Positions 19,579 through 40,404 of a stretch of DNA of 44,107 bases are shown here, piece by piece (position 1 is the stretch's first letter; each line of letters starts with the position of its first letter). Made by a program: the position numbers and the translations under genes. Origin of the DNA: Oxalobacteraceae bacterium (GTDB lineage Bacteria; Pseudomonadota; Gammaproteobacteria; Burkholderiales; Burkholderiaceae_D); assembly GCA_027490465.1 (NCBI GenBank), contig JAIXXZ010000011.1, positions 1 to 44,107 on the forward strand, given 5' to 3'. The notes beneath the pieces were generated by a model. The model was not told the DNA's origin. It saw only the letters and a list, made by a program, of their open reading frames with translations, and searched no databases.

Positions 19579-21570
19579 ATGGCCAGTAAAAAATCCGATT
19601 ACAGCGAATCATCCATCCGCGTCCTGAAAGGACTCGAACCGGTCCGGCAACGGCCCGGCATGTACACCCGTACTGAGAACCCACTGCACATCATTCAGGA
19701 GGTCATTGACAATGCCTCCGACGAGGCGCTCGGTGGTCATGGCAAAAATATCTTCGTCACCCTGCACAAAGATGGCAGCGTGAGCGTTGAAGACGATGGT
19801 CGCGGCATCCCGGTCGGTCTGCATCCGGAAGAAAAAGTGCCGACGGTGGAAATTGTCTTCACCCGTCTTCACGCCGGCGGCAAATTCGACAAGGGTTCGG
19901 GTGGCGCCTATGCGTTCTCAGGTGGTCTGCACGGTGTTGGTGTCTCTGTCACGAATGCGCTCTCTTCCAAACTTGAAATCACCGTCTGGCGCAAAGACGA
20001 CAAGGGCAATGGCGTACACACGATCGCCTTTTCCGGTGGCGATCTCACTTCGAAACTGAAATCACGCGCCGCTGGCAAGGAAGACAAGAAATCCGGCACC
20101 CGTGTGACGGTCTGGCCGGATCCTAAATATTTCGACTCGCCGATTATTCCGATTGCCGAATTACAGCGACTGCTGCGCTCCAAGGCCGTGCTGCTGCCCG
20201 GTGTCAAAGTCAGCTTCACTCAGGAAAAATCTGGCGACACGCAAACCTGGCTCTATGAGCAAGGCCTGCGCGGCTATTTGACTGAAGCCCTGTCGCAATC
20301 CGGCAGTGGCGAAACATTGATTCCTCTGTTCGAAGGCGAACAATATGCAAGCCCCGACGCCGAGGGCTTCGCCGAAGGCGAAGGTGCGGCCTGGGTCGTG
20401 GCCTGGACGGAGGATGGGAATGTCGTGCGTGAATCCTATGTGAATCTGATCCCCACGCCTGCCGGCGGCACCCATGAATCCGGCTTGCGCGAAGGTTTGT
20501 TCGGTGCAGTCAAAAGCTTCGTTGAAATGCACTCGCTGCTGCCCAAGGGTGTGAAATTATTGCCCGAGGATGTGTTTGCTCGCACATCCTTTGTCTTGTC
20601 GGCCAAAGTACTTGATCCGCAATTTCAGGGACAGATCAAGGAGCGACTCAACTCGCGCGATGCAGTGCGACTGGTCGGCGGCTATTCGCGCACATCACTG
20701 GAGCTGTGGCTGAATCAGCACGTCGATTACGGCAAGAAGCTCGCCGAACTGGTGATACGTCAGGCCCAAAGCCGTTTGCGCTCGGCGCAAAAAGTGGAAA
20801 AGAAAAAATCCTCGGGTGTGGCGGTGTTACCCGGCAAGCTCACTGATTGTGAATCCAGCGATCTGACGCGTAATGAAATATTCCTGGTCGAGGGTGATTC
20901 TGCAGGCGGCTCGGCCAAGATGGGTCGCGATAAAGAATTTCAGGCCATCCTGCCACTGCGCGGCAAAGTGCTCAATGCTTGGGAAACCGAGCGCGACCGT
21001 CTGTTTGCCAATAACGAGATTCACGATATTGCCGTCGCGATCGGTGTCGACCCGCATGGGAAGAACGACACTCCGGATTTATCCGGCCTGCGCTACGGAC
21101 GTGTCTGCATACTATCGGACGCCGATGTGGATGGCTCGCATATTCAGGTTCTGCTGCTCACCCTCTTCTTCCGTCACTTCCCCAAGCTGATCGAACGCGG
21201 TCATATTCATATCGCACGACCACCTCTGTATCGCGTGGATGCGCCGGCGCGCGGAAAAAAGCCTGCGCAAAAAATATACGCACTCGACAGCGGCGAACTG
21301 GAAGCGATCGAAGACAAGCTGCGCAAGGATGGCGTCAGAGACGGCGCATGGAGTATTGCGCGCTTCAAGGGCCTAGGCGAAATGAGTGCCGAGCAGTTAT
21401 GGGAAACCACCATGAATCCGGATACCCGACGCCTGCTGCCGGTGTCACTCGGCGAGCTGGGCCTGAAGGCATCGGAAGATCGTTTCACCATGTTGATGGG
21501 TAAAGGCGAAGCAGCAGCGCGTCGTTCCTGGCTGGAAGAGCATGGGAATGAGGTTGAGGCAGATATTTAA
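19579..21570 (+). CDS. parE: DNA topoisomerase IV subunit B
   Basis: ATPase subunit of topoisomerase IV, which decatenates daughter chromosomes. Length is 663 residues. The GHKL ATPase site is shown by VIDNASDEA, DDGRGIPV and GGLHGVGVS; the TOPRIM domain by EGDSAGGSAKMGRD and DADVDGSHIQ. The C-terminus (SLEELG-like region ending LEEHGNEVEADI) is typical. parC follows on the same strand but is separated by 351 bases containing a composite repeat element, so the two may be transcribed separately. Confidence 0.97.
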   Translation: MASKKSDYSESSIRVLKGLEPVRQRPGMYTRTENPLHIIQEVIDNASDEALGGHGKNIFVTLHKDGSVSVEDDGRGIPVGLHPEEKVPTVEIVFTRLHAGGKFDKGSGGAYAFSGGLHGVGVSVTNALSSKLEITVWRKDDKGNGVHTIAFSGGDLTSKLKSRAAGKEDKKSGTRVTVWPDPKYFDSPIIPIAELQRLLRSKAVLLPGVKVSFTQEKSGDTQTWLYEQGLRGYLTEALSQSGSGETLIPLFEGEQYASPDAEGFAEGEGAAWVVAWTEDGNVVRESYVNLIPTPAGGTHESGLREGLFGAVKSFVEMHSLLPKGVKLLPEDVFARTSFVLSAKVLDPQFQGQIKERLNSRDAVRLVGGYSRTSLELWLNQHVDYGKKLAELVIRQAQSRLRSAQKVEKKKSSGVAVLPGKLTDCESSDLTRNEIFLVEGDSAGGSAKMGRDKEFQAILPLRGKVLNAWETERDRLFANNEIHDIAVAIGVDPHGKNDTPDLSGLRYGRVCILSDADVDGSHIQVLLLTLFFRHFPKLIERGHIHIARPPLYRVDAPARGKKPAQKIYALDSGELEAIEDKLRKDGVRDGAWSIARFKGLGEMSAEQLWETTMNPDTRRLLPVSLGELGLKASEDRFTMLMGKGEAAARRSWLEEHGNEVEADI

Positions 21571-21609
21571 GTTGATTTAACGACGCTGGATCCCGGCTTT
21601 CGCCGGGAT

Positions 21610-21640
21610 GACAGAGTTAAGTGCCTGTGACTTTTCAAAC
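21610..21640. repeat. 31-bp direct repeat, copy 1
   Basis: Starts GACAGAGTTAAG and ends with TGACTTTT-C-AAAC. It matches the copy at 21663-21693 at 27 of 31 positions. Confidence 0.75.
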
Positions 21641-21662
21641 ACCATCCCTACGCTTGCCGGTA

Positions 21663-21693
21663 GACAGAGTTAAGCGCATATGACTTTTAAAAC
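21663..21693. repeat. 31-bp direct repeat, copy 2
   Basis: Second copy of the GACAGAGTTAAG...TGACTTTT-A-AAAC repeat, 53 bases downstream of the first. The interval between the copies holds a degraded sequence (CACCATCCCTACGC...) resembling an eroded CATCCCGGCG motif. Confidence 0.75.
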
Positions 21694-21713
21694 GTCATCC
21701 CGGCGAAAGGGTG

Positions 21714-21790
21714 TAGCGGGGGTTTCAGACCGCATGCGGTCTGCCCGAGAAACAGTCATGGCGTACTCGCCATGGCGCGCCCTGCAAGGG
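21714..21790. repeat. 77-bp structured tandem unit A
   Basis: Begins TAGCGGGGG and ends GCGCGCCCTGCAAGGG. Two stem-loops lie inside: CAGACCGCA/TGCGGTCTG (21726-21743) and CATGGCG-TACT-CGCCATG (21757-21774). A small third hairpin, CCCT-GCA-AGGG, lies at the end. The adjoining unit B has the same length and layout with compensatory stem changes. Confidence 0.8.
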
Positions 21791-21867
21791 TAGCGGGGGA
21801 TTCATGTAGCATGCTGCATGCCCGCGTAACGGCACTGGCTTGCAAGCCAGTGCGCGCCCTGCAAGGG
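21791..21867. repeat. 77-bp structured tandem unit B
   Basis: Directly abuts unit A and has identical length and identical ends. Its stems, CATGTAGCA/TGCTGCATG (21803-21820) and ACTGGCT-TGCA-AGCCAGT (21834-21851), occupy the same offsets as those of unit A but differ in sequence by paired substitutions. Confidence 0.8.
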
Positions 21868-21921
21868 GGGATCCAGTGTCTTCTGTAAAAAATGAACGAA
21901 TTTTGAAATAGCCACGAATAC

Positions 21922-24237
21922 ATGAGTGATCAAACAAATCTCTTCGAAGCCGCCGCCGATGAAGGTGGCGAATCCCTGACACTGGCGACTTTCGCCGAGC
22001 GCGCCTATCTCGACTATGCGATCTCCGTCGTCAAGGGCCGTGCACTGCCTGATGTTTGCGATGGCCAGAAACCAGTGCAACGGCGCATTCTCTACGCGAT
22101 GGATCAACTCCGACTTGATCCCGCCGCGAAGCCACGCAAATCGGCAGCCGTGGTCGGTGATGTTTTAGGCAAACTGCATCCCCATGGCGATCAGTCGGTG
22201 TATGACGCCATGGTTCGTATGGCTCAGGATTTCTCGCTACGCTATCCGCTGGTCGATGGACATGGCAATTTCGGTTCACGTGATGGTGACGGTGCGGCTG
22301 CCATGCGCTATACCGAAGCGCGCCTGACACCCATCTCGCGCCTGCTGCTCGATGAAATCGACATGGGCACAGTGGACTTTCAGCCCAACTACGATGGCTC
22401 GACCGAAGAACCCAAGCTGCTGCCTGCGCGTCTGCCTTTCGTGCTGCTGAATGGCGCGTCGGGCATCGCGGTGGGACTGGCGACTGAAATACCCTCACAC
22501 AATCTGCATGAAGTCGCCCAAGCCGCAGTGGCACTCATCAAAAATCCCAAGCTCGCGCACGATGAATTGATGGCGCTGATCCCCGGCCCGGATTTCCCCG
22601 GTGGTGGCCAGATCATCACGCCTGATACCACCGTCAGCGAGATTTACCAAAATGGCCGCGGCAGTATTAAAGTGCGCGCGCGCTGGAAAATCGAAGATCT
22701 GGCGCGAGGTCAGTGGCAGCTGGTCGTGACTGAACTGCCTCCGGGAACTTCGTCACAAAAAATTCTGGAAGAAATCGAAGAGCTCACCAATCCCAAAATC
22801 AAACTGGGTAAGAAAAGCTTGTCACCCGACCAGATGGCCAACAAACAAGCGATTCTTGGCGTGCTCGATACCGTGCGCGACGAATCCGGTCGCGATGCGC
22901 CGGTGCGTTTGGTATTCGAGCCGAAATCCAAGAATCAGGATCAGGAAGAGTTCAGCAATCTGCTGCTCGCGCACACCTCGCTGGAGAACAACGTCGGTGT
23001 GAATCTGGTCATGATCGGTAACGATGGCAAGCCGCGTCAGAAGGGTCTGGGCGACATTCTGCGTGAATGGATCGCGTTCCGCTTTGGCACTGTCACCCGT
23101 CGCACGCAGCACCGACTCGCCAAAGTAGATGATCGCATTCACATTCTGGAAGGTCGTGAGGCCGTACTGCTCAATATCGACAAGGTCATCAAAATCATTC
23201 GCGAGTCCGATGAGCCCAAGCCCGCGTTGATGAAGGCCTTCAAACTGTCCGAGCGACAAGCGGAAGACATTCTGGAAATTCGCCTGCGCCAGCTCGCGCG
23301 ACTGGAGGCGATCAAAGTGCAGCAGGAACTCGCCGAGCTGCGCAAGGAAAAAGCCACACTGCAGGAGCTGCTCGACAATCCGGCCTCGATGAAAAAACTC
23401 ATCATCAAGGAAATCGATGCGGACGCAAAACAATATGGCGATGCGCGCCGCACCCTGATCAAAGCAGCAGAAAAGGCTGTTGCCGAGATCAAGGTCATTG
23501 ATGAGCCGGTGACCGTCATCATTTCCCAAAAAGGCTGGGTGCGTGCCCGTCAGGGTCACGGCCATGATGCGCAGCAGTTCAGCTTCAAGGCCGGCGATAG
23601 CCTGTATTCGACCTTTGAATGCCGCACCACAGATCATGTGCTCGCGTTTGGCTCCAAAGGCCGCGTGTATTCCGTGTCGGTATCGCAGTTACCCGGAGCA
23701 CGGGGCGATGGTGTACCCATGACCACGCTGGTTGAAGTGGAAGCCGGCACGCGTCTTGTCCATTACTTTGCCGGCACACCTGAAACAACGCTGCTATTGG
23801 CATCGACCGGCGGCTTTGGCTTTGCTGCCAAAGCCGGCGACATGATCAGCCGCCAAAAAGGTGGTAAATCCTTCATGAGCATGGACGAAGGCGATGAACC
23901 CGTGATGCCCGCCATCATAGGCAAACAAGCCAGCGCGCTGGTCTGCCTGTCCGAAAAAGGGCGCTTGCTGGTTTTCGGCATGGATGAGATCAAGACACAA
24001 GCCAGCGGTGGACGCGGTGTGACGCTGATGGATCTCGATGCGAATGAAAAGCTGCTGGCAGCGCAACCGATCTCGAAAAAAGGTGTGCGCATACTGGGTA
24101 CCAGTGCACGCAGTGGCAAGCAGCAGGAAAACACGCTTAGCGGCGCTGATCTCGCACATCACTTCGGCAAGCGCGCTCGTAAAGGCAAGCTGCTGGCGTC
24201 GCGCATGAAGGCAACGCGACTGGAAGCCATCGAGTGA
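21922..24237 (+). CDS. parC: DNA topoisomerase IV subunit A
   Basis: DNA-cleaving subunit of topoisomerase IV, 771 residues. The catalytic Tyr130 sits in [11 protein letters not shown]. The quinolone-resistance region reads [12 protein letters not shown], with Gln91 at the place of the E. coli ParC Ser80 and Asp95 for Glu84. The breakage-reunion core continues with [18 protein letters not shown], then the coiled-coil and a C-terminal beta-pinwheel domain with repeats such as [18 protein letters not shown]. The start at 21922 gives the common N-terminus [10 protein letters not shown]. It follows parE after the repeat block. Confidence 0.97.
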
Positions 24238-38013: not shown

Positions 38014-40404
38014 ATGAAATCCACCGAATTACGCCGCCCGCAAACATCCCCGGCCAAACCGCTGATACGTGAAGTGCAGCGTCGTGGTGGCACGTCCGTG
38101 CCAGCTGCCGCCCCCGAAGACAAGCCCTACACGGATCCGGTCTGCGGCATGAAAGCCGCTGCCAATCCGGACAAGTCGGCCGTTCATGCGGGCCAGACCT
38201 ACTACTTCTGCAGCACCGGTTGCGTGAGTAAATTCAAATCCGATCCGATGCGCTATCTCTCGCCGGATCGAAAAAACGAGCCCACAGGTCCCGCCGATGC
38301 GATCTATACCTGCCCGATGGATCCGGAAATCAAGCAAGTGGGGCCCGGCTCCTGCCCTATCTGCGGCATGGCACTCGAGCCCATGCAGGCGACGATGGAA
38401 GAAGACACGACTGAACTTGACGATATGACGCGACGCTTCTGGTTCAGTCTTGCGCTGTCGCTGCCACTGCTGTTTTTGAGCATGAGTGAATTGATCGGTG
38501 TCGACAGTGCCGCACTGCTTGGTCACACCACCCATGCCTGGCTGCAGGGTCTGCTCGCCACACCCGTGGTGTTCTGGTTCGGCTGGCCGTTTCTCGAGCG
38601 TGGCGCACGCTCATTCAAGAACGGCCATTTGAATATGTTCAGTCTGATCGCGATGGGTGTGATGGCGGCCTGGCTGTTCAGTGCAATCGGACTGCTTTTT
38701 CCACAGGTACTGCCCGACGCATTTCGAATGAACGGCATGGCACCGCTGTATTTCGAAGCGGCGGCTGTCATCGTGTCGCTGGTGTTGTTGGGTCAGATAC
38801 TGGAATTGCGCGCCCGATCCAAAACCAATGCCGCAGTGAGATCACTCCTCGCGCTGGCGCCCACAACGGCCATCAAAGTGAATGCTGATGGCAGCGAGCG
38901 CGAAGTGTCGCTGGATCAGGTACAGATCGGCGATCTGCTGCGCATACGACCCGGTGGCAACCTACCCGTTGACGGTGTCGTCACCGAGGGTGAATCCACC
39001 GTGGATGAATCCATGCTGACGGGCGAAGCCATATCGGTTCAAAAAATCGCAGGCAGTAAAGTCATCGCAGGCTCGGTCAATCAGCAGGGTGCTTTCGTGA
39101 TGCGTGCTGAAAAAATTGGTGCAGATACCTTGCTCTCTCACATTGTGCAATTGGTGAATCAGGCAGGACGCTCGCGTGCACCAATACAAAAGCTGGCGGA
39201 TCGTGTATCGGGCTGGTTTGTACCTACAGTCATTGCGGCTGCCGCACTGTCCTTCATCGTGTGGGCAGTGGCGGGGCCTGCACCGGGACTGACGAATGGA
39301 CTGGTGGCAGCGGTGTCGGTGCTCATCATTGCCTGTCCCTGCGCACTCGGACTAGCGACACCGATATCGATCATGGTGGGTATTGGTCGCGGTGCGCGTG
39401 AAGGCGTGCTGATCAAGGATGCCGAAGCGCTGGAACTGATGGAAAAAATCGACACGCTCATCGTGGACAAGACAGGCACGCTCACCGAAGGCGCACCGAA
39501 GGTACAGCAAATCGTTGCCAGTGAAGGTTTCGCGCGCGCCGATGTGCTGGTACTCGCAGCAGCACTGGAAAACATGAGCGAGCATCCGCTGGCGCACGCC
39601 ATCCTTGTGCATCTGAAAGCGCAGAACCTGCCCATCTTGCCTGTCACCGGCTTCAGCGCCATCACCGGCAAAGGCGTACGTGGCCATATTGATGGCAATG
39701 CGGTATCGCTAGGCAATGCACTGCTGATGAAGGAAGCCGGCGTCGATATCACGTCACTCGCACACAAAGCGGATGAATTGCGTGCGATGGGACATACGGT
39801 GATGTTTGTCGCGGTTGAGCAGAAACTGGCCGGTGTGATCAGTGTTGCCGACACCATCAAACCCGAAACTCGCGAAGCCATACGTCAGCTCCACGCAGAA
39901 GGTGTGAAGATCGTGATGCTGACTGGCGATAACCTAACGACCGCGCGCGCTGTCGCCGCAGAACTGGGCATCGATACTGTACATGCCGAAGTTTTGCCTG
40001 AAGAAAAATACCGTCATGTGCAGACATTGCAGCAACAAGGCAAGATCGTTGCGATGGCCGGTGATGGCATCAATGATGCACCGGCATTGGCTGAAGCCAG
40101 TGTGGGCATTGCCATGGGTACCGGTACCGATATCGCGATGAACAGCGCGCGCATTGTGCTGGTCAAAGGCGATTTGAGGGGTATCGTCAAGGCAAGACAA
40201 TTGTCACGCGCGACCATGCGCAATATTCGGCAGAATCTCTTTTTTGCCTTCGTTTATAACTTTGTGGGCGTGCCGATTGCGGCAGGTGTCTTGTACCCTT
40301 GGCTGGGCCTGCTGCTCTCACCGATGATTGCCAGCGCGGCGATGAGTTTTTCTTCAGTATCGGTGATTGCCAATGCGCTGCGACTGAGACGTGCCTCGCT
40401 CTGA
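38014..40404 (+). CDS. copA: Copper/silver-translocating P1B-type ATPase with YHS and HMBD domains
   Basis: A 796-residue heavy-metal exporter of the inner membrane. N-terminal metal sites are unusual: a YHS domain (DPVCGM at 41-46, FCSTGC at 65-70) and a heavy-metal-binding domain (YTCPMDPE ... CPICGM at 98-119); no HMA domain (GMTCXXC) is present. The core has CPC at 441-443, the phosphorylation motif DKTGT (Asp485), SEHPLA, TGDN and GDGINDAP. NFVGVP and MSFSSVSVIANALRL in the last helices mark the P1B-1 (Cu+/Ag+) class. thpR follows six bases later. Regulation may involve the upstream ACCTTCCC half-site, but this is weak. Confidence 0.92.
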   Translation: MKSTELRRPQTSPAKPLIREVQRRGGTSVPAAAPEDKPYTDPVCGMKAAANPDKSAVHAGQTYYFCSTGCVSKFKSDPMRYLSPDRKNEPTGPADAIYTCPMDPEIKQVGPGSCPICGMALEPMQATMEEDTTELDDMTRRFWFSLALSLPLLFLSMSELIGVDSAALLGHTTHAWLQGLLATPVVFWFGWPFLERGARSFKNGHLNMFSLIAMGVMAAWLFSAIGLLFPQVLPDAFRMNGMAPLYFEAAAVIVSLVLLGQILELRARSKTNAAVRSLLALAPTTAIKVNADGSEREVSLDQVQIGDLLRIRPGGNLPVDGVVTEGESTVDESMLTGEAISVQKIAGSKVIAGSVNQQGAFVMRAEKIGADTLLSHIVQLVNQAGRSRAPIQKLADRVSGWFVPTVIAAAALSFIVWAVAGPAPGLTNGLVAAVSVLIIACPCALGLATPISIMVGIGRGAREGVLIKDAEALELMEKIDTLIVDKTGTLTEGAPKVQQIVASEGFARADVLVLAAALENMSEHPLAHAILVHLKAQNLPILPVTGFSAITGKGVRGHIDGNAVSLGNALLMKEAGVDITSLAHKADELRAMGHTVMFVAVEQKLAGVISVADTIKPETREAIRQLHAEGVKIVMLTGDNLTTARAVAAELGIDTVHAEVLPEEKYRHVQTLQQQGKIVAMAGDGINDAPALAEASVGIAMGTGTDIAMNSARIVLVKGDLRGIVKARQLSRATMRNIRQNLFFAFVYNFVGVPIAAGVLYPWLGLLLSPMIASAAMSFSSVSVIANALRLRRASL

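Follow-up and report, generated by a model that had tools for sequence, protein, structure and literature searches.

The window analysed here, a 44,107-nucleotide (nt) stretch of an Oxalobacteraceae draft genome (the source genome below), carries a pair of tandem repeat units in the gap between a parE-like gene and parC. Our analysis indicates that these units are probably two copies of a mobile DNA module, non-autonomous and about 78 nt long, inserted in tandem into the stem of a CGTC-type repetitive extragenic palindrome (CGTC-REP). Related modules occur in discrete size steps, in several kinds of host, at several positions per host and in double occupancy, and therefore suggest that a defined unit was inserted, not that one repeat grew.

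A repeat search of the window recovered two direct 77-nt units with a spacing of 77 and 74% identity. This agrees with an earlier note on the same DNA, made from the sequence alone, whose register lies one base later. The units and their parts are as follows.

21713-21789, plus strand: module A, 77 nt, direct repeat; covariance model match of 88.0 bits.
Parts of module A: basal helix P1 21716-21720/21744-21748; hairpin H1 21726-21732/21737-21743; hairpin H2 21755-21763/21768-21776; conserved tail 21777-21789.
21790-21866, plus strand: module B, 77 nt, the tandem copy with different stems, direct repeat; covariance model match of 97.4 bits.
Parts of module B: P1 21793-21797/21821-21825; H1 21803-21809/21814-21820; H2 21832-21840/21845-21853; conserved tail 21854-21866.

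In the module, hairpin H1 stands upon P1 across a conserved internal loop, GRWTT; a short linker, GNARC, precedes hairpin H2, and in most copies the tail follows. GRWTT, ahead of H1, and GNARC, ahead of H2, are the conserved unpaired motifs. When units are numbered from the start of GTAG, stem 1 occupies positions 14-20/25-31 and stem 2 positions 43-51/56-64. All six compensatory pairs described in the earlier note are present (16-29, 17-28 and 19-26 in stem 1; 45-62, 46-61 and 51-56 in stem 2), as are two one-sided changes between A and B (C-G to T-G at 18-27 and T-G to C-G at 44-63). Part of TAGCGGGGG, which it took to be single-stranded, pairs in P1 (4-8/32-36), a third helix that it had overlooked; in module A the outermost pair of this helix is a G opposite an A and is unpaired. 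An outer helix, 4-9/68-73, which appears in the energy minimum of unit A, was set aside in favour of P1 because, in close copies, 4-8 covaries with 32-36 whereas the tail does not change.

Also overlooked earlier was an interrupted palindromic repeat around the units, recognised from two inverted repeats (I1 and I2):

21586-21612, minus strand: intact half of the host repeat, the palindrome CTGGATCCCGGCTTTCGCCGGGATGAC, CGTC-REP/dRS3-like, with a TGTC tag on the minus strand; 16 nt of it recur, inverted and without mismatch, in the other half (I1).
21693-21709, plus strand: interrupted half, 5' part, CGTCATCCCGGCGAAAG; supported by I1 and by spacing classes in the source genome.
21868-21880, plus strand: interrupted half, 3' part, GGGATCCAG and outer bases; supported by I2 (83% complementary) and by spacing in the source genome.
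21610-21701, no strand assigned: region between the REP halves, with a 39-nt direct repeat (21610-21648/21663-21701, 85% identical).

The two modules have pushed GGGATCCAG (21868-21876) away from its 5' part, and the bases outside it pair imperfectly with the left outer end of the host repeat. The CTGGATCCCGGCTTTCGCCGGGATGAC-type pattern has a single match within the window, with 0 expected. By eye, both halves show the tag, the 8-9 bp stem beginning with AT, the 4-5 nt loop and the CCA-type tail, in line with the definition of CGTC-REP/dRS3 repeats by a CGTC or TGTC tag, AT-starting stem, short loop and CCA-type tail (Di Nocera et al. 2013, PMC3733652). By its sequence, then, the host is a CGTC-REP, and it fits family 1 as outlined there, with an 8-bp AT-starting stem, 4-nt loop, CCA tail and CGTC plus TGTC tags. 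The tags of the window halves lie inside, making a tail-to-tail pair and not a head-to-head dimer with tags outside; CGTC-REPs are mostly described as head-to-head dimers, with tags-inside pairs being rare (PMC3733652), and the head-to-head arrangement is not an exclusive CGTC-REP feature.

Empty and filled versions of such hosts coexist within single genomes. In the source genome, at loci chosen by model matches (L010-L039 and L145-L184), the spacing from GTCATCCCGGCG to GGGATCCAG at 49 distinct places was 6 nt (empty) at 36, 82-85 nt (one unit) at 9 and 162 nt (two units) at 2, with 13 and 60 nt at one place each. The window is one of the two 162-nt places, and one of the 82-85 nt cases (L014) holds a diverged unit. 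The net gain is thus +76 to +79 nt for one unit and +156 for two. A second tally, in which REP copies are shared with the first since both read both halves of each REP pair, measured the spacing from GCCGGGA to TGAC at 54 places and gave 0 in 33, 61 in 17 and 122 in 1, the others being 55, 55 and 133. These steps reflect a 61-nt sister class (GCGAGTGGGG...) that is matched by the same model and forms tandem arrays with a period of about 61. At loci L146-L158, L160 and L174 its insert, GCGAGTGGGGAATTC...GGTGA, stands at the CGTC-REP edge singly (17 places) or in tandem, and contig C104 has at least three in a row.

The same pattern was found in an unlike host. Relative G858 contains a 113-bp repeat with inverted ends that is either empty or holds one or two modules, each adding 78. 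Among 27 host elements with both ends recognised (those with more changed ends being left out), 13 of 113/114 nt were empty, 11 of 191/192 nt held one module and 3 of 269/270 nt held two; these counts are not frequencies because the loci were chosen by model matches. Three positions account for all 17 modules (9, 6 and 2), which share a single orientation. Comparison of empty and filled sites usually shows GG, then two bases (CG) that are replaced, then the module, and at the three positions before position -1 a G is present in 84, 108 and 94 of 115 copies. Other hosts, identified by eye, are CCCTCTCCCC-type palindromes (L106, L108-L110, L125), further repeats with inverted ends (L049, L060, L259-L268) and sites downstream of terminator-like hairpins (L126, L132-L134). 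At these last loci the modules lie just 3' of a hairpin of the CCCCGTCCG..CGGACGGGG type, which by eye recurs in several genomes.

The spread of the module was assessed with an exact two-end pattern, which by design leaves little of P1 free and prescribes both the TTC preceding H1 and the tail, and with two covariance models, R1 built from 25 copies and R2 from 100 R1 matches. The pattern had 9 matches in the source genome against 0 for a reversed control, and was present in 4 of 37 relatives, the source genome included. Across 84,980 species genomes it matched 28 DNA stretches, all titled Oxalobacteraceae, Burkholderiales, Burkholderiaceae, Undibacterium or Herbaspirillum, and all with a core length of 71 nt even though the last gap was free to vary from 22 to 34. 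With the covariance models, a search that the earlier note had proposed, the source genome gave 67 R1 matches at E<=0.1, 63 of them at E<0.001. At E<=1e-4, R1 matched 34 of 399 genomes of its order, while R2 matched 131 of 195 sampled genomes and 31 of 42 genera of its family, and 6 of 397 genomes of its phylum, 2 of these lying outside the order; all of these multi-genome counts are lower bounds, since the filters were stricter and few candidates were scored per genome. The number of matches ranges from 0 (E<=1e-4) in same-genus genomes to 52 (E<=1e-6) in one relative.

Modules mostly lie outside long open reading frames (ORFs): at 28 of the 30 best source-genome matches (2 near contig ends were skipped, and some loci overlap), 3 modules overlapped an ORF of >=150 amino acids (aa) by more than 20 nt, compared with 2344 of 2800 random positions at the same loci. 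A copy of 91.8 bits resides on the Cupriavidus metallidurans CH34 megaplasmid. The module stretch of the window had no match among phage and plasmid sequences, whereas a G858 module with its host flank matched 4 plasmid records. The 2 from C. metallidurans align along 98% of the query with 79% identity; the 2 from Eleftheria terrae cover 27% of it, in the host part only. Modules were also seen within longer repeats, including five 186-bp tandem repeats in G295 (L135 1601-2530; 99% matches) and about three 148-bp tandem repeats in G370 (L136 1736-2229), with one module in each. The G295 array adjoins a CCTCCGCCTCCACCA end that by eye resembles the 3' end of a tRNA or tmRNA. Model matches in G922 (C1:2635159-2635740) mark six modules on one strand at 101-bp spacing.

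The earlier view that structure rather than sequence is kept is well supported by these many copies, whose stems vary but still pair, and it thus withstands the refuting conditions set in the earlier note. In a MAFFT alignment of 25 rows, 96.6% of 525 stem cells pair and two-sided changes occur at 15 of 21 pairs; 13 of the rows came from the two-end pattern, and in those only H1 and H2 were free to vary. None of 500 shuffles matched this paired percentage and slid partners paired at 28-42%, although the number of further pair types lies within the shuffle range (149 of 500 shuffles reach it). For 100 matches (84 distinct) the paired share was 94.4%, and for 121 matches (115 distinct) it was 95.6% of 2415 stem cells, each set having two-sided changes at 20 of 21 pairs, in the larger set across all three helices. 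The 115-copy alignment was fitted to the model, and R2 alignments are biased towards the R2 structure because R2 was trained on earlier matches; here again 0 of 500 shuffles scored as high, and sliding the partners by 1-3 columns gave 32-43% pairing. Within P1, covariation is strongest at the second and third pairs, while the innermost is invariant among standard pairs. P1 and the unpaired motifs are kept across genera, and the tail GCGCCCTGCAAGG is found within 2 mismatches in 67 of the 115 distinct copies.

These observations lend themselves to a mechanism in which the module would enter the stem of a pre-existing palindrome, usually after GG. Replacement of two target bases by about 80 is the best reading of the empty and filled sites, both at the three G858 positions and in source-genome CGTC-REPs. 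A fold that is kept with free stem sequence, a fixed polarity and conserved unpaired motifs together suggest recognition of a folded single strand, and the module may move in trans in this form, recognised by its hairpins. An HUH/Y1 enzyme (TnpA-REP or IS200-like) would be the natural candidate mobiliser by analogy, and trans mobility by an HUH enzyme is an analogy because no linkage to the Y1_Tnp domain and no significant strand bias were found.

A number of points weigh against insertion of a mobile module. It is footprints alone that are seen, not movement, and independent insertions may be few, since copies at one site may go back to one insertion that was then multiplied along with its host repeat. 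Simple re-insertion after CAAGG would give a tandem period of 79, whereas 77 is observed. GG before the module is usual but not universal (L249 has GAGTAGAGT without GG), and the known IS200/IS605 chemistry does not predict the loss of two target bases. Y1_Tnp had no match in the source draft genome. Among 49 genomes searched it matched in 40 and had no match in the source genome and 8 others, and 7 of these 9 carry modules (G000, G002, G017, G018, G029, G136 and G370), 2 of the 7 being less than 90% complete. When 30 loci of the 70 listed Y1_Tnp matches were scanned with the model, there was no credible module (best E 0.61). Replication-strand bias among the matches listed was not significant overall (51 vs 69, p=0.12), with the origin taken from dnaA, the terminus assumed opposite and some genome lengths rounded. 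By genome, the tally was 18 vs 34 in G885 (p=0.04, uncorrected) and 9 vs 17 in G858 (p=0.17). This tally left out contigs without dnaA (G858 C3, G923) and the G295 array, and kept one or none of the tandem matches in G922, G370, G863 and G947. A transposase of the REP-associated tyrosine transposase (RAYT) or Y1 type was rejected as a partner, there being no association in the source genome, the 48 others and the 30 loci, and no support for lagging-strand transposition was drawn from strand bias.

The main rival is mosaicism driven by recombination, in which the modules are exchangeable segments resembling REPs or miniature inverted-repeat transposable elements (MITEs), reshuffled between palindromes by homologous recombination, gene conversion or template switching, with covariation due in part to hairpin-templated correction. 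We consider this a real but lesser possibility. It gains from the combinations of stems seen in the source genome, where stem-1 type A is found with both stem-2 types; stem-1 type B was seen there only with stem-2 type B. That the types are not tied together is a point which the earlier note had missed. Near-perfect Watson-Crick stems (2264 of 2415 cells) are likewise what hairpin correction would yield, and mosaics of dRS3 and RS repeats, the Neisseria intergenic mosaic elements (NIMEs), are known (PMC3898611). Reshuffling sits less well with one module type being found at three different places in a single 113-bp repeat, each time as a +78 step, or with modules in repeats whose flanks appear unrelated by eye, and correction alone leaves the cross-genus conservation of P1 and the unpaired motifs unexplained. 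It is unlikely that the modules are diverged Burkholderiales REPs of the known GTAG/RAYT type, or REP doublets forming hairpins (REPINs). Their high copy number outside long ORFs would fit, as would the GNAG foot on an imperfect hairpin with conserved internal loop, a layout reminiscent of the GTAG-tagged, bulged-stem REPs of group 2 (PMC8266576). However, only 32 of the 115 distinct copies carry GTAG (72 carry GNAG), H2 is not an inverted copy of H1, and the Y1_Tnp results above speak against this origin both at the 30 loci and in the 7 module-bearing genomes.

We regard as still less probable a structured non-coding RNA or mRNA-processing element that acts when transcribed, for example on parE-parC transcript stability, and that the repeats merely spread. 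Strong covariation and the co-directional placement between parE and parC are compatible with such a role, as is the excess of G-T over A-C on the modelled strand (45 vs 23, p=0.01, with rows not independent and a model that favours G-T). The stem cells comprise, besides the Watson-Crick pairs, these 45 G-T and 23 A-C pairs and 83 others; compared with what is typical of RNAs, wobble pairs are scarce, which favours DNA palindromes over selected RNA. The loops, too, are palindromic in most copies (CATG in H1, TGCA in H2), and the number of matches varies widely between relatives. Rfam 15 gave no match above the gathering threshold for the whole window, and an E-value search of 21500-22000 gave 3 matches, all far under gathering scores. 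Of the three options raised in the earlier note, the structured RNA is therefore not supported and a REP-like mobile unit is the best fit, given the discrete size steps inside other palindromic repeats. A protein-binding cruciform could still be accommodated, although free stem variation argues against a protein that would recognise the duplex stems by their sequence.

Comparison with known systems places the modules in the REP/MITE kind. Like GTAG-REPs and REPINs, they are short intergenic repeats with compensatory stem changes and an imperfect hairpin that has a short foot on its 5' side, in single and tandem copies (PMC3733652, PMC3116915, PMC8266576), and the hairpin follows the foot directly and has an internal loop (P1, loop and H1, covarying). 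By the tag and RAYT tests, though, the inserts are not GTAG-REPs: the tag is mostly not GTAG, two unlike hairpins stand in fixed order with a tail, the modules are nested at set positions in other palindromes, and RAYT linkage was not found. The symmetry of REPINs is absent, the 25-row alignment showing H1 and H2 to be unlike in size, loop and flanks, as is that of MITEs, for the module ends GYGNAGC and CTGCAAGG are by eye not inverted copies; a short GCAGGG match in some genomes is the sole inversion seen. Nested REP dimers offer a further parallel, as a short repeat inside another palindrome (A. variabilis GTAG-15, T. roseum GTAG-23 and H. neapolitanus CGTC-1; PMC3733652), but these are ordinary REPs, unlike the modules, and empty targets are reported there as absent in 2 of 3 cases, whereas empty and filled module hosts share one genome. 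By arrangement alone, units beside dRS3-like palindromes recall the RS-dRS3 mosaic plan of NIMEs (PMC3898611), yet the modules interrupt the REP stem instead of lying between dRS3 copies, and inhabit other hosts as well. Minimal derivatives of IS200/IS605 share two hairpins, strand polarity and insertion beside a short preferred sequence (general features in PMC6006769), and differ in that no transposase was found near the modules, which apparently replace two target bases.

The literature searched, with preprints and most subscription papers outside its scope, held no recognised description of the modules, and the string CGCCCTGCAAGG occurred in none of it; no Rfam entry was found either. They may, tentatively, represent a new class of minimal mobile element of 61-78 nt with two hairpins, recognised by fold, using oriented set sites inside palindromic repeats, stacking in tandem like cassettes and moved by an enzyme of host or phage origin that works on folded single strands of DNA. 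If the insertion reading is correct, at least one nested, structure-conserved mini-insert is carried by two thirds of the genomes sampled from a large bacterial family, and some carry more than 50. As empty and filled sites occur in one genome with regular size steps, the spread of REP-like repeats would then be directly testable, since the product that an insertion should leave, its orientation and its net length are already defined.

The genes on either side of the modules are:

19579-21570, plus strand: parE-like gene, upstream; best family TIGR01055 parE_Gneg, 687.6 bits, below the curated cut-off of 723.35.
21922-24237, plus strand: parC gene, downstream; TIGR01062 parC_Gneg, 782.5 bits, above the cut-off of 628.9.

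One terminator-like site on the minus strand within H2 of unit A is at chance level (1 found vs 0.6 expected). Elsewhere in the window, an ORF of 796 aa contains a tandem repeat with a 15-bp period (2.1 copies, 38982-39013).
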